A program made the position numbers and the translations under genes. Shown here piece after piece: positions 3,101-35,583 of a stretch of DNA of 35,583 bases (position 1 is the first letter of the stretch; every line of letters begins with the position of its first letter). The notes beneath the pieces are model-generated. The model saw only the letters and a program-made list of their open reading frames with translations. It had not been told where the DNA came from and ran no database searches. The stretch covers positions 1-35,583 of the forward strand of contig NZ_LR735017.1 in assembly GCF_900009265.2 (NCBI RefSeq), in the 5' to 3' direction. This DNA is from Planktothrix paucivesiculata PCC 9631. Lineage in GTDB: Bacteria; Cyanobacteriota; Cyanobacteriia; Cyanobacteriales; Microcoleaceae.

Positions 3101-3235
3101 TTCTGTGACGGTTTGGGCAAATACCCTATTACCTATCTGTAATGATTCCCAGATAAAAAGGCTGGGGTGTTCTGTTAGATTTAGGGTCGTTAATAGGGTG
3201 AATAACGTTGTTAATCCTAGATGTTGTAGTTTCAT
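110..3235 (-). CDS. TPR-CHAT caspase-like protein (exported)
   Basis: Predicted 1041-residue protein. A hydrophobic N-terminus (about residues 1-41) looks like a signal peptide or anchor, so export is inferred. Twelve TPR units of 40 residues follow (about 84-563), each carrying the pattern LGQYQKAIEF. The C-terminal domain (about 740-1040) is a CHAT domain of the caspase/separase clan. The catalytic dyad is visible as His909 in HFATHG and Cys954 in LSACDTG, so the protease is probably active. Known CHAT proteins are regulated peptidases, and TPRs usually bind partners. It is the last gene of a minus-strand cluster: the DUF928 gene ends 14 nt upstream and a CHASE2 adenylate cyclase lies before that. 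The function of this trio is not established. The substrate cannot be read from the sequence. Confidence 0.93.
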   Translation of the reverse strand: MKLQHLGLTTLFTLLTTLNLTEHPSLFIWESLQIGNRVFAQTVTEQKTEADRLLRQGIQQYQTSQYQSAIQSGETALKLYREIGDRNGEGNSLLNLGNTYNSLGQYQKAIEFFQQSLTIQREIGDRKGEEGSLLNLGAVYWNLGQYQKAIEFFQQSLTIQREISDRTGEGNSLLNLGAAYNSLGQYQKAIEFFQQSLTIQRELGDRNGEGGSLNNLGGAYVYLGQYQKAIEFFQQSLTIQRELGDRNGEESSLNNLGGAYNSLGQYQKAIEFYQQSLTIRREIGNRKGEGGSLNNLGLAYNYLGQYQKAIEFYQQSLTISREIGDRNGEESSLGNLGLAYSDLGQYEKAIKFHQQSLTISREIGDRNGEGSSLNNLGNVYLDLGQYQKAIEFYQQSLTISREIGNRNGEGTSLNNLGVAYNDLEQYQLAIEFYQHSLTITREIGDRQGEGNALNGLGGAYKNLGQSQKAIEFHQQSLAISRELGDRNGEGSSLNNLGIVYLDLGQYQKAIEFYQQSLTIFREIGDRQGEGNSLNNLGAALFKLGNLPEAEKHLFASLEVKESLRQDIKNDLSKVSLSETQRNSYNTLQQVLIAQNKINQALEISERGRGRALAELLAKQFTPDSSQFSPVVSLAQLQQIAQQQQATIVEYSTIKDIFYTGEKQEYLESELYIWVIKPTGEIEFRRSDIKPLGEQQNTDLSRLIFAARCFDNDACKSDFTVASAGGELTRTQTRSSGLFNADARLRATQNIPISSSSKNPQFQQLYQILIQPIADLLPTNPDERVIFIPTDSLFYLPFAALQDETGKYLIEKHTIVVSPSIAVLDSTHQQRQNVSNSASDILIIGNPQMPKIAPSPGEKHKALQPLPFAEQEAISIGELLKIQPLIGANATESTVLSRMANARIVHFATHGIFDNIQPLNSGIALTPSGSEDGLLTADQIFGLKLNAELVVLSACDTGLGKITGDGVIGLSRSFLSAGVPSLVVSLWSVDDQATGELMTQFYQNLQTTKDKAQALRQAMLSVKKTNPNSYYWSSFMLMGEAL
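1546..2986 (-). repeat. Tandem 120-bp TPR-coding repeats (about 12 units)
   Basis: About twelve successive 120-bp units encode 40-residue TPRs. Units are highly similar in DNA, with the recurrent phrase CTGTTGATAGAATTCAAT and a HIP1-like GCGATCGCC at nearly the same place in many units. Variation is concentrated in the Asn/Gly-Leu-Gly/Tyr helix region. This points to recent unit duplication or homogenisation, so copy number may vary between strains. Confidence 0.85.
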
Positions 3236-4155: not shown

Positions 4156-6039
4156 CTATAACCCTAACACTTGATAAACCTCAACCGATTTTTTTCTCCC
4201 CTTCAATGTTAACTCTCCCCAAGATTCGACTGTGTATTTTTTCGGTAAGTAAATTAATGTTTCTTTAGTTGTCAAAATTCGACATTCTCCGACATGACGA
4301 TCTTTTTCACAACTTTCTAAACGGGAAGCAATATTAACACTATCGCCAATTACCCCATATTCTAAACGATTTTTTCCTCCTAAACTGCCAACGGTGACAA
4401 CTCCCGTATAAATCCCGATTCGCATTCTAACTTCAGGTAAGTTTTGCTGTTGCCATTTTTGGTTTAATTCGGACAAACATTGACCCATTTCTAAGGCACA
4501 ATTAACGGCATTTTCCGCATCTTTAGCAATATCTTTTAAATGGATTCTAGGAACAGGAACCCCAAATACAGCCATTAACCCATCCCCGGTAAATTTACTG
4601 ACAATTCCATGATGATTTAAGACAATATCCGTCATCAAACCTAAATATTGATTTAACCAATTCATTAAGTCTTCGGAGGATTGTTTTTCGGCAATGGTAC
4701 TAAAGTTTTTTAAGTCTGTAAATAGGATGGTTGCGGTTAAAGTTTGGGGCGGGAAAATCCCTGAGTTAATTAAATGCGATCGCTCATTCCATAAAGCATT
4801 AGCAATTTCTGAGGAAGTCTGTTGTCCCAACAATTTCATGACAATTTTTTGCTGTTCTTGAAACTCCCAAGTTTGATGAATAACAATTCCTAAAAAAGTT
4901 AAAATATAAGCTAAAATTGGAGCCGCAATAGGTATCCATAATAGTTGTAAAAACAATCCATAACTGACTCCTAATAAAACGATTAATCCCAGAAAAAAAC
5001 CTGTTATTAACGACAACGGATGTTTACTTTTCCATCCCCAATAACTTCCTAAAATTCCCCAGGTAATTATCCATAAATATTCCCAATATTCTGACCAAAA
5101 TCTAAACAGAGGTTTTCCATCTAAAACAGCACTTAATATTTGACTAACTATCTGAGCATGAACCTCTATTCCTGGCATTTCTTTAACTTGAATTTTCCTT
5201 TCTTGATAGGGCGTTAAAAACTCATCTTTAACACTAAATGAATTCGTTCCGATTAAAACAATTTTATCTTGAACCAATTCCGGTTTATAATTACCTTGTA
5301 AAATCTCCATTAATGTAATAGTCTGTGCAATCTTTTGAGGAGTTCGATAATTCAGTAAGAGTTTATAGCCCTTTGCATCAATATTTTGATATCCTCCTGA
5401 ATTGGATTGCAATTTATCAAAAACGGCATTTCCTAATTGATATTGACCCTTGGCATTAAGTTTAGGCAAAATTCCCTCAGATTCCAAATAAAGTAAAGCT
5501 AATTGTAGAGAAAAAGCCGTTAATGTGGTTTTTTTATCCTTGGCAAATATTAATTGACGGCGGACGACTCCATCGGGGTCAATTGGAATATTTACAAACC
5601 CAACTTGTTTAGACGAAATTGTTGGCGGTGGGGAAATAGAGGGAATCAATTGAGTACCGATAGAAGTAACAGCAATAATATTCGGTTTTTGTAGTTGTTT
5701 AACCAATTCCCCATGACCCGGAGGAACTACAAGATCTCGATAGATATCAATACCAATAGCCCGGGGTTGATGTTGTTGTAAATTAGCTAAAACCTGTGCT
5801 AAAATGCCATCAGGAATCGGCCATTGTTTGATTGTTTGAATATCGGTTTCTGTAATTTCAACAATCAGTAACCGCGAATCAATTCCCGGGTCAGGACGCG
5901 ATCGCACCATCAAGTCATAGGCTTTTAATTCTAAGGGTTGTAAGCCTCCAAACTGACGAATAATAAATACAATAGTTAAGGTAAATCCCGTTAATATTAT
6001 CTCCGGTAATCCCAAGATTTGACGTAAGCGTTTACCCAT
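4156..6039 (-). CDS. CHASE2-domain class III adenylate cyclase
   Basis: Predicted 627-residue membrane receptor cyclase. One N-terminal hydrophobic segment precedes an extracytoplasmic CHASE2 sensor (about residues 30-330). Two or three membrane helices (about 345-430) lead to a C-terminal class III cyclase domain (about 435-620). Metal-binding Asp442 (FTDLKNF) and Asp486 (FTGDGLMAVFG) are present. So are the adenine-specifying pair Lys482/Asp566 and the transition-state residues Asn569 and Arg573. It is therefore predicted to make cAMP. The frame can start at TTG 6045, but ATG 6039 is preferred because GGAAA precedes it by 7 nt. It is the first gene of the minus-strand cluster with DUF928 and TPR-CHAT. 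The CHASE2 ligand is unknown. Confidence 0.93.
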   Translation of the reverse strand: MGKRLRQILGLPEIILTGFTLTIVFIIRQFGGLQPLELKAYDLMVRSRPDPGIDSRLLIVEITETDIQTIKQWPIPDGILAQVLANLQQHQPRAIGIDIYRDLVVPPGHGELVKQLQKPNIIAVTSIGTQLIPSISPPPTISSKQVGFVNIPIDPDGVVRRQLIFAKDKKTTLTAFSLQLALLYLESEGILPKLNAKGQYQLGNAVFDKLQSNSGGYQNIDAKGYKLLLNYRTPQKIAQTITLMEILQGNYKPELVQDKIVLIGTNSFSVKDEFLTPYQERKIQVKEMPGIEVHAQIVSQILSAVLDGKPLFRFWSEYWEYLWIITWGILGSYWGWKSKHPLSLITGFFLGLIVLLGVSYGLFLQLLWIPIAAPILAYILTFLGIVIHQTWEFQEQQKIVMKLLGQQTSSEIANALWNERSHLINSGIFPPQTLTATILFTDLKNFSTIAEKQSSEDLMNWLNQYLGLMTDIVLNHHGIVSKFTGDGLMAVFGVPVPRIHLKDIAKDAENAVNCALEMGQCLSELNQKWQQQNLPEVRMRIGIYTGVVTVGSLGGKNRLEYGVIGDSVNIASRLESCEKDRHVGECRILTTKETLIYLPKKYTVESWGELTLKGRKKSVEVYQVLGL

Positions 6040-6384
6040 GATCAATTTCCATAATAAAAATCAGATTATCCAATCTATCTTACGATTTTATTTACAAAAA
6101 AACATCGAAACAAAAAATATATAAACAACTGATTATATAGCAATCCGCGCTTTCGAGACGGAGGTTGTAATAATTTACAACTGATATGAAACAGCCATAA
6201 GTATTATCTGCTGTTCCCTATTCCTTTTTATATAGGATTAAATATAGAGGTGGAGATATTGACGGAATGATCCAAGCAAGTTAACCTTGATTATCAATAC
6301 TAACAATCCCGCAGAGTGTATAAGGATAGCCCACGTACAAACTCACTAAATTCTGTTTAACAACATCTAAAAACAAGGGGTAGC
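6040..6384. other. Divergent intergenic region, cyclase / amylase
   Basis: About 345 nt of AT-rich spacer between the divergent cyclase and alpha-amylase genes. It must hold promoters for both. The amylase has a good ribosome site (AAGGGG about 4 nt before ATG 6385). AT-rich stretches near 6105-6140 and 6228-6250 are candidate -10 regions, but no convincing -35/-10 pair was found. No small gene or RNA was recognised. Confidence 0.5.
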
Positions 6385-9335: not shown

Positions 9336-10874
9336 TTAAGCGGCTTCTAAAATTAAATCCCCTGATAGTCTTTGATACAAAATTGCCCCTGTCCAAAATG
9401 TCGGAGCAAATCCTGGATAGCCCGATGAAGCATTACAAAAATAGAAATTTTTTAAAGATGTTAAATGATTCAATCTGCCAATTCCCATATTTTTGGGTGT
9501 CAGGCTGGAACCGTAGGAATTGCCTTGAGGACACCAGCAAAATCTCTCATTTGTCGTGGGACTCCCAGTAATTTTAAAGACTAAATATTTTCGCAGATTT
9601 GGAATATAATGTTGTTCCATTATATCCAAAATAGAGTTTAATATGGCTTCTTTTTTGTCATTATAGGCTTTGCGATTTGTAGCTTGAAGTTCTTTAAAAT
9701 AGGCATAATTAGCCACAGTTAAAAATTCAATAATTTGACAGTCTTCTGGACAATCCCCTGCGGTTTCTGTGAGTAAGGTAGGTGTTGTAATCGCAAAAGT
9801 GGGATTAGAATAATCATGTTGTTCATACATTTGATAAAAAGCTTCATTTAAGTTTTGATGTCCCGTATGAAAGGTATTCCATTTCCCAAATCCATAGTCT
9901 CGCAAATCAATGTCTTTGACTACACAATAGGCCATATAATTTGAGGGCGAATAATCGTAATTAAGCCGATGGCGGATTTTGCGGGAAAATTTGTCAATTC
10001 CAATCATCTGAGCCGCTTTTTTAGGGTCTATATTACAGATAATTATTTCACCACTAAATTCACGGGTTTGATGGGTAATTCGATCTGTTGCTTGAACTCC
10101 GGTTACTGTTTTATCCGTAACCAGAAAATTAGTAACTTCCTGGTTAACAAGCACCTCACCACCATTATCTTCAATAATTTTAACTAAGGAATTAATCACA
10201 AATTCAAAATGTTTGGTCGGGTAAAATGCACCCTGTTGATATCCTGTAAATAAAATTACCCAGGCGTAGAAAGAAAGTTGATCGGGGGGGAGTAAAAAAT
10301 CAGGCCACTGTGATGCTAAAAGTGTTTGTGCTTCTAGGGGTAATTGAAATTTATCAAAAACATTCTGAAGGGTACTATTAAGATACATGACAGCACAGGA
10401 AACTTCAGCAAAATGCTGAAATAATTGCATAGGATTAACTGGGGGCGATAATATCTTTAATCCTTTACTGGTCTTTTGGACTTCTAAAATAAATTGACAA
10501 ATTTGATTTGTATTTTGAGGAAAAAGTGCGGATAATCTTTGGATTAATTCTTGAGATTCTGAGGGAATATTGAGAGCATATCCTGGCATTCTCATGTGAT
10601 CAAAACCATCAGGATCATATCGCTCAAAGGTGACTGTTTGCTCTAAGTTGAGTTTTTTTAAAACTTGATTGACGGTATGTCCTTCACCACAATCCCAAAC
10701 ATAATGGAGTTGGGCATTAAATTTATATTTTTTTGCCATCGTAAAGGTATGACCAAAGCCCCCTGGATATTCATGGGCTTCCAAGATTTGAACTTTTTTA
10801 CCAGATTTTGCCATTAAAGAGCCAAATACTAATGCAGATAAGCCACTGCCAACAATCAGGTAATCTGTTTTCAT
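9336..10874 (-). CDS. FAD oxidoreductase of the CrtI/CrtISO/retinol saturase superfamily
   Basis: Predicted 512 residues. It has an N-terminal dinucleotide-binding motif (VGSGLSALVFGSLMAKSG) followed by EAHEYPGGFGHTF, as in phytoene-desaturase-like COG1233 proteins including carotenoid isomerases and retinol saturase. The C-terminus GYPGFAPTFWTGAILYQRLS matches the FAD-closing region of that fold. The start is supported by GGAGAA about 6 nt before the ATG. The reaction could be desaturation, saturation or cis-trans isomerisation of a polyene or other hydrophobic substrate; the sequence does not say which. It lies between the glycosyltransferase and the COG2907-type gene. It does not look like a standard cyanobacterial CrtP, CrtQ or CrtH, but I could not align it. 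Confidence 0.82.
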   Translation of the reverse strand: MKTDYLIVGSGLSALVFGSLMAKSGKKVQILEAHEYPGGFGHTFTMAKKYKFNAQLHYVWDCGEGHTVNQVLKKLNLEQTVTFERYDPDGFDHMRMPGYALNIPSESQELIQRLSALFPQNTNQICQFILEVQKTSKGLKILSPPVNPMQLFQHFAEVSCAVMYLNSTLQNVFDKFQLPLEAQTLLASQWPDFLLPPDQLSFYAWVILFTGYQQGAFYPTKHFEFVINSLVKIIEDNGGEVLVNQEVTNFLVTDKTVTGVQATDRITHQTREFSGEIIICNIDPKKAAQMIGIDKFSRKIRHRLNYDYSPSNYMAYCVVKDIDLRDYGFGKWNTFHTGHQNLNEAFYQMYEQHDYSNPTFAITTPTLLTETAGDCPEDCQIIEFLTVANYAYFKELQATNRKAYNDKKEAILNSILDIMEQHYIPNLRKYLVFKITGSPTTNERFCWCPQGNSYGSSLTPKNMGIGRLNHLTSLKNFYFCNASSGYPGFAPTFWTGAILYQRLSGDLILEAA

Positions 10875-10985
10875 GATCGTTCTCCTTCTTAAAAAGAGTA
10901 GCCTCAGTTTGCCTGCCCAGGTAGGGAAGTATCAGTTGATTGCTCAAATGGGTGTTGGCTTGAGTTCAGGTATTAATGGATTATC

Positions 10986-11075
10986 AGGACTTACGCAAAT
11001 TGGGGGATATAACCCTAGATGTAGGGGTAATTCATGAATTACCCCTACTATTGATAGCGGTGATGCCTAAGTCCT
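10986..11075. repeat. MITE-like element, 90 nt, AGGACTTACGCA ends
   Basis: The element starts AGGACTTACGCA and ends TGCCTAAGTCCT, an imperfect terminal inverted repeat. A perfect 28-nt palindrome sits in the centre (11021-11048), running from GTAGGGGTAA to TTACCCCTAC. It matches the 90-nt architecture of 17273-17362 although the palindrome core differs. It separates the glycosyltransferase from the downstream FAD gene and could form a strong hairpin in their transcript. No coding capacity. Confidence 0.85.
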
Positions 11076-11099
11076 GATTATAACAAGATTACAGAAAAA

Positions 11100-12377
11100 T
11101 TATTTTGTAGCTAAAACCGGTTTTCCAGTGGATACAACCTGTTCAATAATATCCGCAGCTTTCTTAACTCCCCCAGAACGTGCAATGGCTTCTTGGAGGG
11201 CGATTGCTCTTTTTTTATAAGAGGGTTCTGTAAGTACCTTTTCAATAGCAGTTCGCAATTTAGGAACACTAATTTGTTTCAAAGGAACCATTTCCCCAAC
11301 TCCGGTATAAACAATTCGGGCTGCAACACCAGGCCCGTCATTCATAACTGGAATAGCCACCATGGGAATGCCATTGGTTAACGATTCTAAGGTGGTATTC
11401 ATTCCGGCATGAGTAATGGTTAAAGTGGCTTTTTGTAACAGTTCTAATTGCGGTGCATAACCAACAACTATAGGATTTCCGGGTAATTGAGGTAAGGATT
11501 CAGGAGTCAGTCCACCACCGAGAGAAATCACCAATTGAGCATTTAATCCTTCACAAGCAGAGGCAATTTTTTGAAAAACCTCGGGTAAGTTATTAATAAT
11601 AGTCCCCATCGAGGCATAAATTAGCGGTTTCCCGTTTAACTGTTCAAAGGGAAAAGAAACAGCTTTGCAACTCGCGGGATTATGATAAGGGCCAGTGAAA
11701 TGAAAATAAGGAGGTAAATCTGTTCTAGGAAACTCGAATTCCGCAGGTTGTTGACTAATTTGAGCGAGTTTAGAGTAATAGTCATGGGGACTAGCATACA
11801 AGGGTAAGTTCCATTTCCCCCGATATTCAGCCAACAATTCTCGAATCGGTTTAGTTGCTAGAGTGAGTAACGAATAAGCCAATTGATTGCGTAGGCGTCC
11901 TGTCCAAGTGGGATTATATGGCCAAGTCGTAAAAATGGGTGGAATATTGGGATCTCGATTCAACAATAATGCACTACAAATTGTTATAAAAGGGAGATTG
12001 AGGTGATCAGCCACGGTTCCGCCTTGGAGTGTAACTTGATCTATCAGTAAAGCGTCTACTCCTGCTTTTTTAATTGCGGTGGGAGCTTCTCTGAGCATAG
12101 CATCCGCAGTCTTTGTCGTCTGATTAATGTTATATCGCAAAGCTGCTAATCCACTGAGCTTGCCCATTTCGGTTAGGATGTCTGCAATTGATCCAAGGGG
12201 AAATTCATCTTCAGCGAATGGATGAAATTCTAAGCCTCCTGCTAAGGTTTTGGCTTGAGCATCAAGAAAATCAAAAACGGTAACTTGATTACCACGACGA
12301 AGTAGTTCGCACCCTAACGGGATCATGGTGTTGAGATGTCCGGTAGAGCCTGGACAGAGAATGCCGAAGTGGGTCAT
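11100..12377 (-). CDS. GT1-family UDP-glycosyltransferase (MGT / CrtX-like)
   Basis: Predicted 425 residues with a GT-B fold. The N-terminus GILCPGSTGHLNTMIPLGCEL is the acceptor-side glycine loop. The C-terminal donor site (about residues 305-360) includes VVGYAPQLELL, THAGMNTTLESL and GIPMVAIP, the pattern seen in macrolide, zeaxanthin and ecdysteroid-type UDP-sugar transferases. HAG is the conserved nucleotide-sugar contact. It probably transfers a sugar from a UDP donor to a small hydrophobic acceptor in the cytoplasm. Two FAD oxidoreductases follow downstream, which suggests a shared product such as a carotenoid or other isoprenoid glycoside. That is inference. GGAG lies about 9 nt before the start. 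Confidence 0.88.
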   Translation of the reverse strand: MTHFGILCPGSTGHLNTMIPLGCELLRRGNQVTVFDFLDAQAKTLAGGLEFHPFAEDEFPLGSIADILTEMGKLSGLAALRYNINQTTKTADAMLREAPTAIKKAGVDALLIDQVTLQGGTVADHLNLPFITICSALLLNRDPNIPPIFTTWPYNPTWTGRLRNQLAYSLLTLATKPIRELLAEYRGKWNLPLYASPHDYYSKLAQISQQPAEFEFPRTDLPPYFHFTGPYHNPASCKAVSFPFEQLNGKPLIYASMGTIINNLPEVFQKIASACEGLNAQLVISLGGGLTPESLPQLPGNPIVVGYAPQLELLQKATLTITHAGMNTTLESLTNGIPMVAIPVMNDGPGVAARIVYTGVGEMVPLKQISVPKLRTAIEKVLTEPSYKKRAIALQEAIARSGGVKKAADIIEQVVSTGKPVLATK

Positions 12378-12797
12378 TAGAAACGGCTCCGTGTGAGTTT
12401 AAACGATTTTTAGCATCTTAATGATCAAGATGAAATGTTAGGAGAAGTGAATATATGGCTTGTGTTAATCAGCGACTCTTAATAACTATAGCTATAAACG
12501 CACTAAAAATAATTAACGGATAACTTAGTTTTAAACTAACCTTTCGCTGTGGGGATGGCCTGTACTTTTGGCTAGGTCGAAATTAGTCATCAGTCATCAG
12601 TTTATCGCAAGATTCCCCATTACCCCTTACCCATTCGTAATTCGTAATTCGTAATTTTTCCTCTCAGGTGCTTAACCGCTTGTGGTGATATTGGTCACAT
12701 AATTTATACGGAAACATCACTTAACCAGACCTAAATCAATCACCCCCCAAACTGGGTAAACACGAGATGATTAAAGTGTCGAGTTCAAGGTCTTGCC
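12378..12797. other. Intergenic region with heptamer repeat and one repeat arm
   Basis: A 420-nt divergent spacer between the glycosyltransferase and a small conserved gene. It contains three tandem TTCGTAA heptamers (12634-12654), which is cyanobacterial STRR-type sequence. They lie within a larger arm (12592-12655) that recurs inverted at 13074-13124. Promoters for both flanking genes should lie here. An AT-rich ATAATTTATAC near 12699-12709 is a possible -10 region for the small gene, but support is weak. Confidence 0.55.
12592..12655 (+). repeat. Left arm of inverted dispersed repeat around small gene
   Basis: The reverse complement of this arm matches 13074-13124. Exact blocks include TTGCGATAAACTGATGACT (19 nt) and AATTACGAATTACGAATGGG (20 nt). 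The left arm has about 13 nt more between these blocks. The two arms bracket the 72-codon gene at 12798-13016. This type of GGGGAAT/AATTACG repeat is known to be scattered in cyanobacterial genomes. Confidence 0.75.
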
Positions 12798-19678: not shown

Positions 19679-19753
19679 ATGCTGACCAAATTCAGCGTTG
19701 GTAATTATCTATCTTTTCAAGAAACTGTCACCTTTAGTCTGGTGTACAACTAA
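19679..19753 (+). pseudogene. N-terminal remnant of an AAA15-type ATPase
   Basis: An ATG with AGGA 6 nt upstream opens 24 codons: MLTKFSVGNYLSFQETVTF, then SLVYN and stop. This closely resembles the first strand of AAA15/OLD-like ATPases, which typically begin ML-x-F-x-V-x-N-(F/Y)-x-SF-(K/Q)-E. The Walker A region that should follow about 15 residues later is absent. It is therefore a truncated gene whose body was deleted or replaced, immediately upstream of the NACHT gene. AAA15 ATPases are frequent in phage-defence loci. Confidence 0.6.
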
Positions 19754-19838
19754 TTTAGACTTGCTATAGTGGAAAAATGCACTCAAGCAAAAGCTAACAT
19801 TTCAACTAAAATTATTACACCCTATTTGGGATTGCTAT

Positions 19839-22800
19839 ATGGTATTTGAAACTGTAGTCACTGTAAGCACGGTAATTGCACCCTGGTTAGGAGAATGGGG
19901 AGCAGTAAAAATCGCAGGTCATATTCTAAAGAATATTTGCAGTCAATTAAATACCCAGGAGATTGGAAAAGCTTTAAAAGTGGCGATTACTGTTGCAGAT
20001 CAACAATGTAATCAGTTATTTGGTCAGAGTGATAAGGGGTTTAAAAGTAAATTTTTATATCAATATTTTAAGAGAGAAGAAGTTTTAGAAGAATTGCAAA
20101 AACCTCTAATTAATCAGGGAATTAATCTTGATTTTCTAGTTTTTGCTTTTGAAGATACAGTTAACAAGAATAATTCAGATAGAAATAATCGAATTAATCG
20201 AGAATTTATTCAGCCTTGGTTAGAACTATTTAAAACAGAATATTTTAAACAAATTGGTGACAATTTAAACTTTCAATATGCTAAGGCTGTTTATCTTAAA
20301 CAATTAATATGCTGGTATGATGATGTTAAGTTTGTGGGGATTGATGCTAAAGGACAGGAAAACGATAAATCAGAAAAGCTGGCTAAAATTTTTGTGATGC
20401 AAGATGTCAAAGAGGAGAAAAAAGAACGTTATGGGAGTCTGAGGGAAGCTGATTTTTTAGAGTTGGGAGATCAGGGAAATCGCCAAGGGGAATTATCCCG
20501 ACAACAACGTCAATGGATGGCTTCAGATAATTATGCGGGAAATCCCTTTCCGGCTCAGGATTTATTAACGAAAAATCAAGCTAAAAAGGTTGTGCTTTTG
20601 GGTGCGCCCGGTTCAGGAAAAACAACATTATTGAGTTATTTTTCAGTGATTATTGCTCAAAATCAATCGGAATTATTAGGCTTAAATTCAGAAGTTGATT
20701 GGCTACCGATTTTGATTCGGATGCGGGACTATGTTCGCTTTGAAAAGCTGAGTATTTTAGAATATTATCAGCAATTTTGCCATAAATCTCTGGTGGTTCC
20801 ATCTTTACCCGGAGGATTTTTTGAACATTGGCTAGAAGATGGTAGAGCTTTAATTCTTTTAGATGGTTTAGATGAAATTGTTGAAGAAGGCAAACGCAAT
20901 GACATCGTCCAAAAAATAGAGAATTTCCTGGGAAGATATGACCAAAATCGGGTAATGATTACGTCTCGTCCGGCGGGGTATCGCAGAGACTTTTTTCCGG
21001 CTGAAGAGTTTCCCCATTATTGGTTACAGCCGTTTGATGAACCTAAAATTAACGCATTTATTGAGAATTGGTATAATAGCCGCACTCCAGATCCAGAAGA
21101 AGCTAAACGCCGCAAGGAAGATATTAGAAAAGCCTTTGAGCATAATCCTCGCCTTCATGTTCTAGCGCGGAATCCTTTATTGTTAACGATTATTGCTTTA
21201 ATTCATCGTTATCAAGATAAATTACCCAAGGAAAGATATAAACTTTATCACTGTGCAGTACAAACTTTATTAACAACCTGGGATACAACCAATAAGCAAC
21301 TCGAAAATCATCACAAATTAGAGTATCTCAAAAATGATGATTGGGAAGATTTGATGCAAAATTTAGCGTTTTGGATTCATAGCCATCAAGACGAAATTGA
21401 AAATAATGAATTAGAGGGAACATTAATTGATCAAGATGAGTTAATTAACTTTGTAGCAGGTTATATCAAAGAAACAAAGCAGATTAAATGGACTCCAGCT
21501 AAAAATGAAGCCCAACGTTTTATTGATTTTGTGCGCGATCGCAGTGGCTTACTCAATGAGCAAGGGACAAATTGTTATGCGTTTGTCCATAAAACTTTTC
21601 AGGAATATCTCTGCGCTCAAAAAATACAACGGGAAATGGAGGAAGATTCCTATAACTTCGAGATTATTCTCGATGCTATTAAAACCCATCTCCATGATGC
21701 TCACTGGCGGGAGGTTTTGTTATTATTGGTAGCTCAACAGCAGAAAAAATCAGCAGCAAAAGCGATTCAAGTTATCTTAGATAATCAAAGTGAGTATGAG
21801 CAATGGTTACATCGAGATTTATTATTTGCTGGCAGTTGTTTAGCTGAAAATCCCAAAGGCTTAAATGTGGCGGATAGTCGTTTAGTGGAGGATATTTTAG
21901 CACGGTTAGTTAGTTTAGAGATTAGTGACAAGACATCAAATAAACTCAAGGAGCAGCTTTTGAAGGTGTTTTGCAGTCTCTACGAAACGGATTTTGCTCC
22001 GCAATGTTTGGCACGTTTAAAAGCCCAGACAAGCAAAATTTATTCAGATAGATTATTAACCTATCGAGTCGAATTAGGGGAAAAGGAAACAGTGATTGAC
22101 GAGTTAATTCAACAGTTGTCCGATAGCGCTGATTGGGTGCGTTGGAATGCAGCATCGGCATTAGGCAACTTAGGGAATGCTTCGGAAACAGTCATTGAGG
22201 CTTTGCTTAAGGCTTTGTCCGATAGTGATGATCGGGTGCGTCGAAATGCAGCAGAGGCATTAGGCAAGTTAGGGAATGCTTCGGAAACAGTCATTGAGGC
22301 TTTGCTTAAGGCTTTGTCCGATAGTGATGATCGGGTGCGTCAGAAGGCAGCAAAGGCATTAGGCAAGTTAGGGAATGCTTCGGGAACAGTCATTGAGGCT
22401 TTGCTTAACGCTTTGTCCGATAGTGACGATGAGGTGCGTCAGAATGATGCAGCAGAGGCATTAGGTAACTTAGGGAATGCTTCGGAAACAGTCATTGAGG
22501 CTTTGCTTACAGCTTTGTCCGATAGTGATGATGGGGTGCGTCAGAATGCAGCAGAGGCATTAGGCAAGTTAGGGAATGCTTCGGAAACAGTCATTGAGGC
22601 TTTGCTTAAGGCTTTGTCCGATAGCAATTATTGGGTGCGTTGTTATGCAGCACAGGCATTAGGCAAGTTAGGGAATGCTTCGGAAACAGTCATTGAGGCT
22701 TTGCTTAAGGCTTTGTCCGATAGTGAGGATGGGGTGCGTCGGAATGCAGCATCGGCATTAGGTAAGTTAGGGAATGCTTCGGAAACAGTCATTGAGGCTT

Positions 22801-23378
22801 TGCTTAAGGCTTTGTCCGATAGTGAGGATATGGTGCGTGTGTATGCAGCATCGGCATTAGACAACTTAGGGAATGCTTCGGAAACAGTCATTGAGGTTTT
22901 GCTTAAGGCTTTGTCCGATAGTGATAATGGTGTGGGTTGGAATGCAGCATGGGCATTAAGCCAGTTAGGGAATGCTTCGGAAACAGTCATTGAGGCTTTG
23001 CTTAAGGCTTTGTCCGATAGTGAGGATGGGGTGCGTCAGAATGCAGCAGGGGTATTAAGCCAGTTAGGGAATGCTTCGGAAACAGTAATTGAGGCTTTGC
23101 TTAACGCTTTGTCCGATAGTGATAATTCGGTGCGTTGTTATGCAGCACAGGCATTAGGCAACTTAGGGAATGCTTCGGAAACAGTAATAGAGGCTTTGCT
23201 TAAGGCTTTGTCTGATAGTGAGGGTTGGGTGCGTGGGTATGCAGCAACCGCATTAGGCAAGTTAGGCAAGCAATCCCCTAAAGTTAAGCCGTTGGTGGTG
23301 GAGTGGATTCAACAACATGAAGATTCTGAATTTGTTGGGAGTGGTATTGATGCGTTGTGGGATTTGGTGAATGGTTAA
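19839..23378 (+). CDS. NACHT NTPase with C-terminal HEAT repeats (bacterial NLR-like)
   Basis: Predicted 1179 residues. Residues 1 to about 190 form a helical N-terminal region with no enzymatic motif I recognise. The NACHT NTPase follows: Walker A GAPGSGKT (255-262), Walker B/NACHT acidic box LLDGLDEI (Asp342, Asp345, Glu346), and ITSRPAGYRR near 375. A winged-helix-like segment ends FVHKTFQEYLCAQ near residue 590. A transition region leads to twelve HEAT (PBS-lyase type) repeats from about residue 750 to 1142. Known bacterial NACHT proteins are STAND switches, several with antiphage activity. The repeats are the likely sensor. The gene appears to be single, with ATPase debris upstream and repeats downstream. 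Target and effector mechanism are unknown. Confidence 0.92.
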   Translation: MVFETVVTVSTVIAPWLGEWGAVKIAGHILKNICSQLNTQEIGKALKVAITVADQQCNQLFGQSDKGFKSKFLYQYFKREEVLEELQKPLINQGINLDFLVFAFEDTVNKNNSDRNNRINREFIQPWLELFKTEYFKQIGDNLNFQYAKAVYLKQLICWYDDVKFVGIDAKGQENDKSEKLAKIFVMQDVKEEKKERYGSLREADFLELGDQGNRQGELSRQQRQWMASDNYAGNPFPAQDLLTKNQAKKVVLLGAPGSGKTTLLSYFSVIIAQNQSELLGLNSEVDWLPILIRMRDYVRFEKLSILEYYQQFCHKSLVVPSLPGGFFEHWLEDGRALILLDGLDEIVEEGKRNDIVQKIENFLGRYDQNRVMITSRPAGYRRDFFPAEEFPHYWLQPFDEPKINAFIENWYNSRTPDPEEAKRRKEDIRKAFEHNPRLHVLARNPLLLTIIALIHRYQDKLPKERYKLYHCAVQTLLTTWDTTNKQLENHHKLEYLKNDDWEDLMQNLAFWIHSHQDEIENNELEGTLIDQDELINFVAGYIKETKQIKWTPAKNEAQRFIDFVRDRSGLLNEQGTNCYAFVHKTFQEYLCAQKIQREMEEDSYNFEIILDAIKTHLHDAHWREVLLLLVAQQQKKSAAKAIQVILDNQSEYEQWLHRDLLFAGSCLAENPKGLNVADSRLVEDILARLVSLEISDKTSNKLKEQLLKVFCSLYETDFAPQCLARLKAQTSKIYSDRLLTYRVELGEKETVIDELIQQLSDSADWVRWNAASALGNLGNASETVIEALLKALSDSDDRVRRNAAEALGKLGNASETVIEALLKALSDSDDRVRQKAAKALGKLGNASGTVIEALLNALSDSDDEVRQNDAAEALGNLGNASETVIEALLTALSDSDDGVRQNAAEALGKLGNASETVIEALLKALSDSNYWVRCYAAQALGKLGNASETVIEALLKALSDSEDGVRRNAASALGKLGNASETVIEALLKALSDSEDMVRVYAASALDNLGNASETVIEVLLKALSDSDNGVGWNAAWALSQLGNASETVIEALLKALSDSEDGVRQNAAGVLSQLGNASETVIEALLNALSDSDNSVRCYAAQALGNLGNASETVIEALLKALSDSEGWVRGYAATALGKLGKQSPKVKPLVVEWIQQHEDSEFVGSGIDALWDLVNG
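22173..23264 (+). repeat. Eleven near-identical 99-bp HEAT-coding repeats
   Basis: Eleven units of 33 codons each begin GGGAATGCTTCGG and encode GNASETVIEALLKALSDS, followed by a variable second helix. The total is 1092 bp because unit 3 carries one extra codon (VRQNDAAEAL). A degenerate unit precedes the array. Most of each unit is identical even at silent sites, while codons for repeat positions 19-21, 24, 25, 28 and 32 vary. This implies recent amplification or homogenisation with selective diversification. Confidence 0.95.
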
Positions 23379-23427
23379 TTGTGTAGTCTCGAATGCGATC
23401 GCTCAATATCTACCTAAAAACTTAAAC

Positions 23428-23765
23428 AGGACTTACGCAAGCAGGCTATATATAGCGTGTCAAAAGTAGGCGATCGCATACCAATGATAATAGCAATCGC
23501 CCTCAAAAGTCCTAATTATTTATTTTCCCCCCAATGTTGGGGGCTAGGCTAGATGGCTTGAAATGTATACTGTTTAGAATGATCAGGTTATGAAGGATTG
23601 ATCAGCAGTTTTAGAGACTATTTCTCAAGCAGCAATATTTGCCCCCTAAATCCCCCAAAATTGGGGGACTTTAAGAGGTTGTCCTGTTAAAGCGATCTCG
23701 TTTAAGTTACGAGCGTGATCGCTAACTCATTAGTACGCTACATATAGCGTAACTGCGTAAGTCCT
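23428..23765. repeat. Composite MITE-like element, 338 nt
   Basis: It is bounded by the same perfect 12-nt ends (AGGACTTACGCA / TGCGTAAGTCCT) as the 90-nt elements. Inside are a short palindrome GCTATATATAGC near the left end and a GCTACATATAGCG palindrome near the right end. The entire 74-nt repeat found at 1-74 lies between them. This looks like an element that captured, or was invaded by, another repeat. Confidence 0.75.
23612..23685. repeat. Dispersed 74-nt intergenic repeat, copy 2
   Basis: Identical to window positions 1-74 in the same orientation, including the CCCCCAAAATTGGGGG hairpin. It is nested in the composite element 23428-23765. Exact identity over 23.6 kb indicates recent movement or gene conversion. 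Confidence 0.9.
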
Positions 23766-23766
23766 G

Positions 23767-23985
23767 TTAAATTTTAGCACCCGCTACTAACTGAGCTACT
23801 AATGGTTGATCTGTTGATAACTGACTCACAGCTAATACAGAAAACCCTAATAAATTTCCGGCTTCATCCACTCGTTCCATAATCGCATCATTATCGGTTT
23901 CTCGCATATAACCCGGTTGATCCGAAAATAAAACTTCTAAAAAATCGCCTTCTTTATCAAAATAAACTTTTACAGTTGAGGCCAT
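23767..23985 (-). CDS. DUF2283 family protein
   Basis: Predicted 72 residues. The N-terminus VKVYFDKEGDFLEVLFSD and the central DNDAIMERVDEAGNLLGFSVL match the small DUF2283 family, whose function is unknown and whose members are often found near toxin-antitoxin or defence genes. It has an excellent ribosome site (GGAGAG about 5 nt before the ATG). No toxin partner is adjacent: the alaS gene lies upstream on the same strand, with a terminator between. It is flanked on both sides by AGGACTTACGCA elements. Confidence 0.85.
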   Translation of the reverse strand: MASTVKVYFDKEGDFLEVLFSDQPGYMRETDNDAIMERVDEAGNLLGFSVLAVSQLSTDQPLVAQLVAGAKI

Positions 23986-24045: not shown

Positions 24046-24054
24046 TAATTTAAC

Positions 24055-24154
24055 AGGACTTACGCACAAGACCAAAGAAACCGGGTTTCTGGCCCTGATT
24101 TTGCGGATGAAATCCAGATTTCTCGTTCAGAAACCCGGTTTCTGCGTAAGTCCT
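24055..24154. repeat. MITE-like element, 100 nt, AGGACTTACGCA ends
   Basis: It has perfect 12-nt terminal inverted repeats as in the other copies. The interior differs: two arms, AGAAACCGGGTTTCT (24076-24090) and AGAAACCCGGTTTCT (24129-24143), form an inner inverted repeat. It sits 7 nt after the alaS stop codon, inside the probable alaS 3' UTR. Confidence 0.9.
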
Positions 24155-24161
24155 ATTTAAC

Positions 24162-28374: not shown

Positions 28375-28989
28375 TTAAATAACTCCAGCTTGAAATATTT
28401 GTTCAGCCGTTAAACTTAACTCTGGAAAAACGCCGGATTGAATACACTCATTTTCTCGAAATTGAGTAACTTGGTATTCTCCATCGACTAAAAAGTAAAC
28501 AGAAATAGTCGGTTTTTTGGGATTACCAATCAATTTACGAGCACCGAGGGCCAGATAATCTACAATCCAATATTCAACAATTCCAATATCTTCGTATTCC
28601 CCATATTTTTTATAATAATCATCCCGCCAATTAGTGCTAACGACTTCAATCACTAAGGGAATAGACTTACCCAAACTTACAGTAGATTCTTTCTTCCAAA
28701 AAGGTTCATTCACCAAATTAGAACGATCTAATAATAAGATATCGGGCGAATAAGCCGACTCACTCGAAGCTGATTTAACCAGTGCCGTTTTCGGAATAGA
28801 ATAAGAAAGATGGAGACGTACATATTCTAAAGTCAATTTTTCAGCTAAAAAACCCACAATATCTTCATATTCTCCCGTCGGTTGTGGCATTTCAATAATT
28901 GCGCCGACCTGGAGTTCATAGCGTTTGTTGTCCGGTTTCCACTGGATAAATTCAGAAAAATTTGTTGGTTTTGGTAAGGATTGAACCAT
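28375..28989 (-). CDS. Uma2 family (DUF820) PD-(D/E)XK nuclease-like protein
   Basis: Predicted 204 residues, typical for Uma2, a family greatly expanded in cyanobacteria. The restriction-endonuclease-like core is visible: Asp83 in SPDILLLD, Glu115 in PLVIEVVS (the E-x-K lysine position is Val, as is common in this family), a conserved Tyr/Lys helix (YYKKYGEYEDIGI), and EYWIVD at 139-144. The biological role is not established; many members are thought to come from or accompany mobile DNA. It is convergent with the DUF3370 gene and appears to be single. Start MVQSLPKPTNFSEF is usual. Confidence 0.9.
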   Translation of the reverse strand: MVQSLPKPTNFSEFIQWKPDNKRYELQVGAIIEMPQPTGEYEDIVGFLAEKLTLEYVRLHLSYSIPKTALVKSASSESAYSPDILLLDRSNLVNEPFWKKESTVSLGKSIPLVIEVVSTNWRDDYYKKYGEYEDIGIVEYWIVDYLALGARKLIGNPKKPTISVYFLVDGEYQVTQFRENECIQSGVFPELSLTAEQIFQAGVI

Positions 28990-32309: not shown

Positions 32310-35300
32310 TTAAATAAAATCACCACTATCCAAATTAGTAGCTGTAATTTTTTGTAAAATTGCTAGATAGTTTCCATTAGAATTAAGTTGAATAATTGTA
32401 TCCTGACTCCATTGATTTTGTCCTTGAGTAATCTTTAATTGTTCAAAGGTTAAACCTAGAGGTAATTCAATTTTATCTTCTGTTAGTTTAAAATCCGTAA
32501 TTATATCCACTTGATTCAGAAGTTTTATTTCCAAATTATTACCAATTACAAACGCATCATTTCCGATATATCCGGTTAAGGTATCGGCGTCTTCGCCTCC
32601 ATCTAAGCGATCATTTCCGAAGTCTCCAAATAGTTTATCATTTCCTTCTTTTCCATATAAACGATCATTTCCGTCTCCTCCAAATAGAATATCATCTCCT
32701 ATTCCTCCATCAATAAAATCCGTTCTATTTCCCCCAATAAGTACATCATTTCCGGCTTCTCCCATCAGACCATCAGCACCTTTTTGACCTAAAATTAGAT
32801 CATTTCCCCCCTGACCCATTAACTCATCATTTCCGTCTCGTCCATAGATAACATCATCAATTTCTGATCCTTGAATTTGATTATCGTGATCAGTTAAACC
32901 GATAATATTGTCTGCATATAAATTGAGTTCTTCGCCTATATTATCGTTGTCTTCTATATTAAATATTATCTGTTTTTCTAAGGCGTTATATCGACTATCT
33001 TCACTCTTAGCAATATGATTAATAGATAGGGTTTGTTCGCCTTCTATTGCTTGATCTTCGATCCCTTCTACGGTAATAATTTGGGGAATATTCCAATTAT
33101 TGGGAGTAAAGGTAATAGTTTGCTGATTGGCTTTTACTTGTTCATCATAATTGATCGCGATCGCAACATCAGCCGTCGGTTCACTTTCTAAGACTACTTT
33201 ATAGATATCAAACCCAAATCCCTCCCAAACTTCTGTGGTGTTGACGGGTTGAATTAAACGGATATTAGCTGTTCCAGGGGGTAAGGGTTTGTCATTTTCA
33301 GTAATATTAACGGTCAGAAAAGAAGTTTCTACTTGATCAATAAAAATGGGAGTTTTGCTATTATAATTATTATCAGAACTACTGATAGAATGTACTAGAG
33401 TGCTAGTATGAATTTCATCCTCAACTATGCTATCATCAATAGCACTAATATTCACTAATTGGGGAAGATTCCAATTGTCCGGGGTAAAGGTTAATGTAAT
33501 CGGGCTATCTTGTCCATTTCCTAAGTCAGTTTGACTATCAGATTTAATCGTGAGGGTAACATTTGCTGTCGGTTGACTGGTTAGAATGACTTCATAAAAA
33601 TCGGTGATTCCCGCTTCACTTACGTCCGTACTTTCTTGACTTTGATTGATTAGAACGGAGGCGGTATCATTATCATTAATGGTGGTGGTAACATCGGGGA
33701 GTGTCACCTGAAGGTATTGGGGATCGGTGGTATTGACGGTATGGCGAATTGTGATCGTTTGGGAAGATTCTGCGATCGCATCATCAACGGTTTTCACTTC
33801 AATTGTTTGGGGTTGATTCCAATTATTTTGGTCAAAAGTTAGGGATGAAATGGGTTGTAATTGGTTTTCTGTTTCAAAATTAATAATCACAGGATTATTA
33901 GGTTTCGCGCTTAAACCTATTTGATAGGTCGCATTTTCTTCGCCTTCTGTTAAAGTCAGATTAGTAGGATTAATCGAAATTTCTGCGAGAGAATCATTGT
34001 CCTCAATTTCCACAAAAACCGAATTGATTGTTAATCCGTTATAATTAGTTTCAGGACTGGTGATTTGATGAGTAATAGTTGTATCGCGATCGCCTTGTAA
34101 TTCTTGATCATCTACCACCTCTACCAGCACTGTTTGAGCAATATTCCAATTATCTTTATCAAAAACAATATCTGGAATCGGTTCGATTTGTTCATCAGTA
34201 TTAAAACTAATTGTAATCGGTTCTATCGGTTCGGTTGTTAAAATGATAGAATAATTATTATTACCTCCTTCTACAATTTTTAAAATATTTGGATCAATTA
34301 AAATATTAGCTGTATCATCATCAACATTAGTAATAGCAATATTTTGGTCTGCTAACTCAGCATATTGACTATCCCTACTTTCAGCTACACTAGCAATAAT
34401 AGAATAACTAATATCTCCATCTTGAATATCATCATCGACTCCGGTAACGGTAACGAGTTGAGAGGTACTCCAGTTAGTAGAATTAAAGGTAATATTGTTA
34501 GTTGATAATGTTCCTTCAGTGGTGTCATTATTAGTTAGACTAATTAGAACATCTGATGTGGGTTGGGAATTTAAACCGATGTTGAAAGTAGCAGTTTCTA
34601 GGGTTTCTGATGTGAGGGTGTCTAAAAGGTTAATATTAATTCCGATGGTATCGTCATCTTGATTAATAAAACTTAGGGTTTCAGGAGGTAAACTACTATA
34701 TTGGCTGTTACTATTTTTAGCTACACTAGCAATAATAGAATAAGAGATATCTCCATCTTGAATATCATCATCGACTCCGGTAACGGTAACAAGTTGAGAG
34801 GTACTCCAGTTAGTGGAATTAAAGGTAATATTGTTAGTTGATAATGTTCCTTCAGTGGTGTCATTATTAGTTAGACTAATTAGAACATCTGATGTGGGTT
34901 GGGAATTTAAAGCGATGTTGAAAGTAGCGGTTTCTAGGGTTTCTGAGGTGAGGGTGTCTAAAAGGTTAATATTAATCCCGATGGTATCGTCATCTTGATT
35001 AATAAAACTTAGGGTTTCAGGAGGTAAACTACTATATTGGCTGTTACTATTTTCAGCTACACTAGCAATAATAGAATAAGAGATATCTCCATCTTGAATA
35101 TCATCATCGACTCCGGTAACGGTAACAAGTTGAGAGGTACTCCAGTTAGTGGAATTAAAGGTAATATTGTTAGTTGATAATGTTCCTTCAGTGGTGTCAT
35201 TATTAGTTAGACTAATTAGAACATCTGATGTGGGTTGGGAATTTAAACCGATGTTGAAAGTAGCAGTTTCTAGGGTTTCTGATGTGAGGGTGTCTAAAAG

Positions 35301-35583
35301 GTTAATATTAATTCCGATGGTATCGTCATCTTGATTAATAAAACTTAGGGTTTCAGGAGGTAAACTACTATATTGGCTGTTACTATTTTTAGCTACACTA
35401 GCAATAATAGAATAAGAGATATCTCCATCTTGAATATCATCATCGACTCCGGTAACGGTAACAAGTTGAGAGGTACTCCAGTTAGTGGAATTAAAGGTAA
35501 TATTGTTAGTTGATAATGTTCCTTCAGTGGTGTCATTATTAGTTAGACTAATTAGAACATCTGATGTGGGTTGGGAATTTAAA
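32310..35583 (-). CDS. Giant Calx-beta-like / RTX secreted protein (N-terminus outside window)
   Basis: The frame is open without a stop from the window edge (35583) to the TAA-type stop at 32310, giving at least 1090 residues. The first possible start inside the window, GTG 34130, lies within a repeat domain and is not a real start. The part seen consists of successive 110-residue Calx-beta-like beta-sandwiches (pattern NWN-x-PQ-x-I-x-V-x-x-V-D-D), three of them near-identical. RTX nonapeptides follow (about 32560-32870), and a C-terminal secretion tail (IITDFKLTEDKIELP) matches the tail of the 14202-17183 protein. Likely a calcium-dependent surface protein exported by type I secretion. No transporter is in view. 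Confidence 0.9.
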   Translation of the reverse strand, partial: LNSQPTSDVLISLTNNDTTEGTLSTNNITFNSTNWSTSQLVTVTGVDDDIQDGDISYSIIASVAKNSNSQYSSLPPETLSFINQDDDTIGININLLDTLTSETLETATFNIGLNSQPTSDVLISLTNNDTTEGTLSTNNITFNSTNWSTSQLVTVTGVDDDIQDGDISYSIIASVAENSNSQYSSLPPETLSFINQDDDTIGININLLDTLTSETLETATFNIALNSQPTSDVLISLTNNDTTEGTLSTNNITFNSTNWSTSQLVTVTGVDDDIQDGDISYSIIASVAKNSNSQYSSLPPETLSFINQDDDTIGININLLDTLTSETLETATFNIGLNSQPTSDVLISLTNNDTTEGTLSTNNITFNSTNWSTSQLVTVTGVDDDIQDGDISYSIIASVAESRDSQYAELADQNIAITNVDDDTANILIDPNILKIVEGGNNNYSIILTTEPIEPITISFNTDEQIEPIPDIVFDKDNWNIAQTVLVEVVDDQELQGDRDTTITHQITSPETNYNGLTINSVFVEIEDNDSLAEISINPTNLTLTEGEENATYQIGLSAKPNNPVIINFETENQLQPISSLTFDQNNWNQPQTIEVKTVDDAIAESSQTITIRHTVNTTDPQYLQVTLPDVTTTINDNDTASVLINQSQESTDVSEAGITDFYEVILTSQPTANVTLTIKSDSQTDLGNGQDSPITLTFTPDNWNLPQLVNISAIDDSIVEDEIHTSTLVHSISSSDNNYNSKTPIFIDQVETSFLTVNITENDKPLPPGTANIRLIQPVNTTEVWEGFGFDIYKVVLESEPTADVAIAINYDEQVKANQQTITFTPNNWNIPQIITVEGIEDQAIEGEQTLSINHIAKSEDSRYNALEKQIIFNIEDNDNIGEELNLYADNIIGLTDHDNQIQGSEIDDVIYGRDGNDELMGQGGNDLILGQKGADGLMGEAGNDVLIGGNRTDFIDGGIGDDILFGGDGNDRLYGKEGNDKLFGDFGNDRLDGGEDADTLTGYIGNDAFVIGNNLEIKLLNQVDIITDFKLTEDKIELPLGLTFEQLKITQGQNQWSQDTIIQLNSNGNYLAILQKITATNLDSGDFI
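34575..35582 (-). repeat. Three 336-bp near-identical Calx-beta-like repeats
   Basis: Three in-frame units of exactly 336 bp (112 codons) at 34575-34910, 34911-35246 and 35247-35582 differ at only a few bases. A further partly matching unit extends to about 34380. Each encodes a unit beginning LNSQPTSDVLISLTNND and containing VTVTGVDDDIQDGD. The array continues beyond the window edge. High DNA identity implies recent tandem amplification and a risk of assembly collapse. Confidence 0.95.

Follow-up and report, generated by a model that had tools for sequence, protein, structure and literature searches.

The NLR-like gene and its domains

The window analyzed here is the whole 35,583-nucleotide stretch of contig NZ_LR735017.1 (positions 1 to 35,583, forward strand) of the cyanobacterium Planktothrix paucivesiculata PCC 9631, in which open reading frame (ORF) calling and translation place a gene for a NOD-like receptor (NLR)-like protein of 1179 amino acids at 19839..23378 (+). 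Domain models give this protein an N-terminal NNH2 domain, a NACHT core with an intact P-loop and a C-terminal HEAT solenoid of the alphaRep type, a predicted layout that is well established at the sequence level. We consider it likely that the gene codes for a stand-alone bacterial NLR-like receptor in which recombination between repeats, together with positive selection, diversifies the contact face. In its build the protein resembles the immune sensors of animals and plants, and the changes of its putative binding surface between close relatives are those that an arms race would lead one to expect in a receptor.

All features of the gene lie on the + strand. The NNH2 domain (NACHT N-terminal helical domain 2; residues 13-169, 19875..20345) matches Pfam PF22734 with an E value of 2.7e-26 and was found by a lenient Pfam scan in the N termini of 7/7 relatives, where the other matches were subthreshold; it is presumed to be an effector or adaptor. 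The NACHT NTPase core (residues 251-412, 20589..21074; Pfam PF05729, E=1.1e-11) scores 45.3 bits against a cutoff of 26.7 and contains two motifs read from the translation, GAPGSGKT (20601..20624) and LILLDGLDEI (20850..20879), which we take to be the P-loop (Walker A) and Walker B, respectively. The GAPGSGKT residues are invariant except for A256 in a three-sequence alignment (A1). A linker predicted to be helical with mixed confidence (21075..22085) joins the NACHT core to the repeat array, which is covered by Pfam HEAT models and followed by a conserved C-terminal cap (PKVKPLVVEWIQQHEDSEFVG...IDALWDLV, 23277..23375). This cap is near-identical in two orthologs of the same genus (genomes G003 and G006) and recognizable by eye in all 17 relatives from outside the genus whose frame extends beyond the array.

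For residues 1-747, no sequence relative was found in the PDB at E values up to 0.01, and the Foldseek list of the full-length AlphaFold model consists mostly of other HEAT or ARM proteins. Five PADLOC families match the protein, each with its best stretch inside the HEAT array, and no NACHT or Avs model appears among the matches listed.

The repeat array and its variable face

The array is made up of 12 HEAT units from 22086 to 23276, split by period, each of 33 residues except unit 4, which has 34; Tandem Repeats Finder reports a 99-bp unit in 11.6 copies at 22116-23266 with 88% matches. An earlier note on this DNA had described eleven 33-residue units at 22173..23264, and of this description the 33-residue period stands, with the number of units and the outer limits now revised. 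Units 1 (22086..22184) and 12 (23178..23276) are array members with divergent outer ends: the former is an N-terminal capping unit with the unique first half ETVIDELIQQL, whose contact residues differ among all four orthologs of the genus, and the latter, delimited by period-based splitting and ortholog comparison, has the unique end GKLGKQS. Units 2-11 (22185..23177) are hypervariable chiefly at columns 16/17/20/21/24/28. Our column numbering starts at ETVI, so that the positions 21/24/25/28 singled out in the earlier note correspond to columns 17/20/21/24; the residues listed there agree letter for letter with units 2-12. Among nine inner units, the synonymous difference outside these four columns is 0.041, and the nonsynonymous difference inside them is 0.506. 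The statement that most positions are invariant even at silent sites therefore holds for the framework, with its low synonymous value, and most of the remaining unit positions are far less variable than the four; columns 9, 15, 16, and 28 vary as well, as does column 32 in relatives.

As the four columns had been picked on the source array, they were tested on the arrays of three relatives, where they rank first among all faces of the i, i+3, i+4, i+7 type and where only 5 of 40,920 four-column sets (the chosen one included) match their summed entropy. In a helical-wheel projection, columns 17, 20, 21, 24, and 28 lie inside an arc of 100 degrees, with column 16, the sixth alphaRep-type position, 40 degrees beyond this arc. 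Within the unit, the variable positions all lie on the same side of its second helix, in keeping with the single helical face described in the earlier note. In 15 arrays from outside the genus, the columns with the highest mean entropy are 17, 21, 20, 24, 28, and 16, which correspond to alphaRep positions 19, 23, 22, 26, 30, and 18 by the offset from the VR/AA/AL motif. In alphaRep, the variable positions are 18, 19, 22, 23, 26, and 30, and the motif is xxVRxxAAxALGx (PMC3754942). The repeats therefore have the motif of alphaRep-type (PBS-like) HEAT units together with six coinciding variable columns, and alphaRep chains are their top structural matches. The suggestion that the variable positions are the alphaRep binding positions is in this way confirmed and widened, since the original four plus two more make up the six randomized in alphaRep.

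The residues at the four positions are biased in composition, with S at 18.4%, G at 9.2%, W at 8.2%, and Y at 6.1%; tryptophan accounts for 0.2% of residues at the remaining repeat positions and for 1.7% in the N-terminal parts. The alphaRep proteins A3 and bA3-2 bind each other via concave faces that bear the variable residues, and by analogy this suggests that the variable residues of the NLR-like protein are on the concave face of its solenoid.

Turnover of the arrays and selection at contact positions

Among 388 genomes drawn from the order, 59 contain relatives of the protein with E values of 1e-80 or better. We sampled 10 genomes of the same genus, at one genome per species, and found the gene in four of them: its own genome, G003, G006, and G008. 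In five of the others, the only NACHT matches are distant ones, and the sixth, which is 73% complete, has none. Residues 1-747 are 88 to 91% identical to those of the orthologs, and ahead of the array the four genes have a DNA identity of 92.3 to 96.1%, a proportion of synonymous differences (pS) of 0.088 to 0.138, and a dN/dS of 0.17 to 0.47.

The four orthologous arrays have 12, 12, 11, and at least 8 units, the last one (G008) being cut by a contig end. They provide 43 complete units, of which 3 with insertions were excluded, leaving 40 for the column counts; counts of synonymous and nonsynonymous differences over inner units also drop the first and last units, leaving 33. There are 39 distinct combinations of the four residues in the 40 units, the sole repeat being found in two adjacent units of one array, and no combination is common to two species. 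The broader comparison used the 19 arrays in which at least six units are readable, out of 30 family loci (4 from the genus and 26 others), after exclusion of three loci without a frame by motif (L049, L063, and L072) and eight with too few units or unreadable stretches. These arrays contain 176 distinct combinations in 183 units, none of them in two arrays. Units with the same index in different species are not closer than other pairs, either at the hypervariable positions (0.524 versus 0.506) or in the framework (0.099 versus 0.095). Orthologs do not keep the same array, in line at the species level with the rapidly evolving surface suggested in the earlier note.

Unit 1 and the last unit can be taken as positional orthologs because unique sequence (ETVIDELIQQL and GKLGKQS, respectively) anchors them. 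Codons 1-12 of unit 1 are the same in the four species, one silent base aside, and the contact codons that follow then differ. The difference at the six alphaRep-type positions is 0.86 in unit 1 (four orthologs) versus 0.19 elsewhere in the unit, and 0.83 in the last unit (three orthologs) versus 0.09 elsewhere. Misordered repeats do not easily produce such differences in the boundary units.

Framework sequences are more alike within arrays (0.074) than between them (0.095), a difference reached in 0 of 1000 label shuffles with the four arrays pooled; by array, the values are 0.026, 0.085, 0.133 (L021), and 0.057. This is the pattern of concerted evolution over the pooled arrays, L021 excepted. 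The mean amino acid identity of units is 0.61 to 0.76, and that of the framework alone is 0.70 to 0.88.

Selection was assessed by pairwise Nei-Gojobori counts over units, comparing the proportion of nonsynonymous differences (pN) at columns 17/20/21/24 with the pS of the framework and taking the 2.5% bound of a bootstrap; the counts carry no multiple-hit correction, and the bootstrap units are not independent. The ratio is above 1 in 19/19 arrays (point estimates from 1.2 to 4.5), and the lower bound is above 1 in 16/19. For the inner units of the four genus arrays, the median ratios are 12.1, 2.4, 2.7, and 6.8, with lower bounds of 6.8, 1.9, 2.0, and 3.0. Four further arrays on contigs of 6.7 to 8.6 Mb also have pN above pS in 4/4 cases, as point estimates without bootstrap. 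By pairwise counts, as distinct from a recombination-aware codon model, the contact positions show positive selection, and the data establish that the putative groove-facing residues are replaced faster than silent sites change, with a framework that is alike within arrays. Three outcomes set beforehand as contrary to the proposal were looked for at the species level, namely conserved arrays, scattered variable positions, and a dN/dS no higher at the variable positions, and none of them was found.

Function, origin of the variation, and related systems

In the receptor that we propose, the groove would bind a changing or evading ligand, most likely a phage protein or alternatively a protein of non-kin cells, and binding would release the autoinhibition of the NACHT core. 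ATP-dependent oligomerization would come next and would switch on the NNH2 helical domain, which would harm or arrest the infected cell. The steps of ligand binding, oligomerization, and output are supported by the logic of STAND proteins (Kaur 2020, PMC7159879) and of bNACHT25 (PMC12169576). New specificities would be created as similar units are duplicated, deleted, and converted by homologous recombination, and as point changes at contact codons are kept by selection. We infer a role of the NLR-like protein in antiphage defense, and a phage ligand is ranked ahead of a non-kin ligand because the gene is mobile and patchily present.

The mobility can be read from the limits of homology. Against G003, homology extends from 19733 (106 bp upstream of the start codon) to 7 bp past the stop; against G006, it starts at 19837 (2 bp upstream of the start codon) and has the same end; and against G008, it starts at 19769. 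An upstream segment (19733..19838, +) travels with the gene, being homologous in G003 and, for a shorter part, in G008. Judging from these alignments, gene and short upstream segment are established to lie at different genomic sites in different species, with three sites for the NLR-like gene in four species. In the source genome, one flank is an HD-domain gene and the other neighbor is presumably alaS; a gene that we take to be mutM-like lies upstream in both G003 and G008, and in G006 the nearby genes are, presumably, cysS and rbcL, all of these names being assigned from the protein sequences. Given the differing sites and neighbors, the gene behaves as a single movable cassette. At the HD-alaS site of another genome (G004, L117 2113-3713), there is no NLR-like gene, and a DUF4365 protein and a second gene match the PADLOC candidates PDC-M02A and PDC-M02B. 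By these matches, at least one cassette site can hold defense candidates, which may be replacing each other in the HD-alaS gap. Dispersed repeats are found just 3' of the gene (23425-23767 and 24053-24156), with many copies in the own and sister genomes among the matches listed; they are possibly miniature mobile elements able to help move the gene.

A rather unlikely alternative is that the protein is an allorecognition receptor instead of a phage sensor, by which cyanobacterial filaments or mats would tell kin from non-kin as fungi do with NWD/HET genes. Fungal het-d/het-e genes have a like signature of internal conservation, concerted evolution, and diversifying selection at contact sites (PMC12222747, PMC4986451), and kin recognition has also been proposed for sensors of multicellular bacteria diversified by diversity-generating retroelements (DGRs) (PMC10907252). 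However, the presence in only 4/10 genus genomes (one of the six without the gene being the 73%-complete one) and the changes of site fit a defense gene better than an obligate kin system, and no polymorphic partner is known.

Neutral drift, in which exposed helix residues are simply unconstrained and become conspicuous through repeat homogenization, appears improbable. Equivalent positions do vary in the natural collection of alphaRep-like repeats (PMC3754942), and 3/19 arrays lack a bootstrap bound above 1, but drift does not predict nonsynonymous differences in excess of synonymous ones, nor the strong W, S, G, and Y bias beside unit positions that mostly vary far less. We used as a control CpcE, a phycocyanin lyase and HEAT protein of the same genus (NCBIfam equivalog, 444.7 bits versus a cutoff of 330). 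In five CpcE orthologs, the difference is 0.000 at 24 alphaRep-type positions versus 0.126 at the other 253, a comparison that covers only 4 motif-pattern matches. As the equivalent positions of CpcE are unchanged, the face is not loose by nature, and drift was discarded on the joint grounds of this control and of pN above framework pS.

As for the way in which the variation is generated, the recombination of units that we favor has left a trace in L166 (G166:C1:6054500-6059900), a relative from another family of the order on an 8.26-Mb contig. This array contains two three-unit runs with all 99 bases identical, and the unit adjoining one of them differs by 2 bases, so the exact 99-base copies indicate recent tandem unit duplication there. 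The repeat shuffling invoked in the earlier note is upheld by these copies and by the array-wise likeness of the framework in the pooled data, if not in each array (L021). That a DGR or a similar mutator writes the contact codons is very improbable, even though cyanobacterial DGRs are thought to diversify sensors of conflict systems and DGR targets in other multicellular bacteria include NACHT proteins (PMC10907252). The first and second codon bases are the most variable, as such a mutator would have it, but third bases vary too (0.275); adenine mutagenesis was dropped as a reading of this codon pattern, since selection explains the lower variation of third bases. A DNA-level search of the own genome, a draft of 97.5% completeness, found no second array copy, template, or donor cassettes. 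RVT_1 matches 11 places in this genome, and the reverse transcriptase frames at four of them (L010, L012, L016, and L019) look like group II intron proteins from a reading of the ORFs, the remaining seven being judged solely by the similarity of their scores to these four. No DGR reverse transcriptase with a template repeat was found in this draft, with frames examined at 4/11 loci. We therefore prefer a scheme in which units recombine by homology and selection acts on the contact codons to one that involves a retroelement, because of the tandem copies of L166, the lack of a second repeat copy, and the group II intron type of the four reverse transcriptase frames examined. The least credible explanation is a short-read assembly artifact that scrambled similar units into false differences between species, for although Illumina assemblies are unreliable for fungal WD40 NLR arrays (PMC12222747) and the G008 contig ends inside the array, a misassembly that shuffles or merges units is not expected to create new contact codons, the two boundary units are anchored in unique sequence and still show differences at the same positions, and the four arrays on contigs of 6.7 to 8.6 Mb have pN above pS too.

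Several observations weigh against the diversified receptor that we propose or limit its reach. The comparison, at one genome per species, bears on turnover between species, and in the draft assemblies repeats may locally be miscounted or misplaced. The arrays without a bootstrap bound above 1 are L051, L052, and L068, and since units recombine, pairwise pN/pS among them is not a clean phylogenetic dN/dS. Homogenization is not uniform, as the framework diversity of L021 exceeds the between-array mean of 0.095. The six alphaRep-type columns hold the highest ranks as a mean and not in every array: when the top six of each of the 19 arrays are listed, column 17 appears in 19, 20 in 17, 21 in 14, 24 in 13, 16 in 10, 28 in 8, and 15 likewise in 8, and for the four later arrays the same listing has columns 17 and 20 in 4/4 and columns 21 and 24 in 2/4 each. 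The full-length AlphaFold model is poor (predicted local distance difference test score of 55.9), especially outside the HEAT part, and the placement of the variable residues on the concave face rests on alphaRep crystal structures. The PADLOC matches of the protein are confined to the repeats, and its immediate neighbors look ordinary; a Uma2 protein about 5 kb downstream (28375-28989, -) matches the PADLOC candidate model PDC-S03 with E=5.3e-94 and has no evident link to the gene.

Other repeats in the window and the genome are worth recording. A CHAT-domain protein (110-3235, -) contains about 11 similar TPR units of 40 residues (array at about 1626-3000), with an almost invariant framework and variable columns 1, 8, 19, 22, 26, 29, and 30, where pN is 0.45 to 0.76 against an overall pS of 0.27; this is a possible second diversifying repeat surface in the window. 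Near this gene, the C-terminal part of the protein at 4156-6045 (-) matches several PADLOC Pycsar cyclase models and may be an ordinary cyclase domain. At 34375-35583, up to the end of the window, a 336-bp unit is repeated in tandem, with 3.6 copies and 98% matches. Elsewhere in the same genome, L119 (G000:C160, about 10452-12746) codes for a long protein with a HEAT array of similar units (NPQVIAALVKVIENTED...), by eye less variable at alphaRep-type positions and therefore an instructive contrast, with a weak NACHT-region match in a separate frame nearby.

Among known systems, fungal NLRs (the NWD genes het-d/het-e of Podospora and NLRs with ANK or TPR repeats) share with this family a NOD/NACHT core followed by similar repeats, contact residues under diversifying selection, and the concerted evolution of the repeats; the variable TPR positions of the fungal proteins are on the concave face, and HEAT-type arrays with the signature of internal conservation and diversifying selection are also reported among them (PMC4986451, PMC12222747). 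The best-studied fungal repeats, however, are WD40, ANK, and TPR, whereas here the protein is bacterial, with alphaRep-type HEAT units of 33 residues and an NNH2 N terminus. The likeness to fungal high-identity NLRs drawn in the earlier note is therefore good for concerted evolution and contact-site selection, but it does not extend to the fungal threshold of repeats more than 85% identical over at least 100 amino acids, as the mean unit identity here is 61 to 76%. DGR-diversified NACHT/STAND sensors are also bacterial NACHT proteins with a diversified C-terminal putative antigen sensor, which in their case is a C-type lectin fold targeted by retroelement mutagenesis, in contrast to a repeat solenoid for which no retroelement was found (PMC10907252). 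The antiphage bNACHT proteins (bNACHT25 and others) likewise have a NACHT core and a tripartite layout with a C-terminal sensing domain, but those described in PMC12169576 end in NCH1 or SNaCT instead of a hypervariable HEAT array. The highly repetitive prokaryotic WD40 proteins, enriched in cyanobacteria, have high internal identity and variable interaction hotspots but are beta-propellers viewed as young duplications (PMC5587647); the words NACHT and "positive selection" are absent from the text of that paper. Unlike the artificial alphaRep binders, which are designed and have units of 31 residues, the repeats described here are natural, two residues longer, fused to a NACHT switch, and evolving. 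The fungal signature, the repetitive prokaryotic WD40 proteins, and the DGR-diversified NACHT sensors are thus already known, and in the literature searched, which takes in a minority of the subscription journals, we found no report of a bacterial NACHT protein with a hypervariable array of HEAT units.

More tentatively, and with somewhat more doubt than confidence, we can envisage a receptor family, widespread in cyanobacteria of this order, whose germline arrays of natural alphaRep-like units are recombined and put under selection, so that new specificities arise with no retroelement involved. It would correspond in bacteria to the NWD receptors of fungi, but with a groove of HEAT repeats, and its turnover within species would probably be rapid enough for population-level adaptive immunity. 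The receptor proposed here would place the fungal design of repeat recombination plus contact-site selection in prokaryotic NACHT proteins, and it would add to retroelement mutagenesis and domain swapping a third way in which multicellular bacteria diversify their sensors. The frequency of the family in the genomes of the order makes it easy to study. Its arrays offer alphaRep-type binders as a library that is natural, shaped by selection, and joined to an NLR switch, so that the arms races between bacterial receptors and their ligands can be read from sequence and tested by array swaps.

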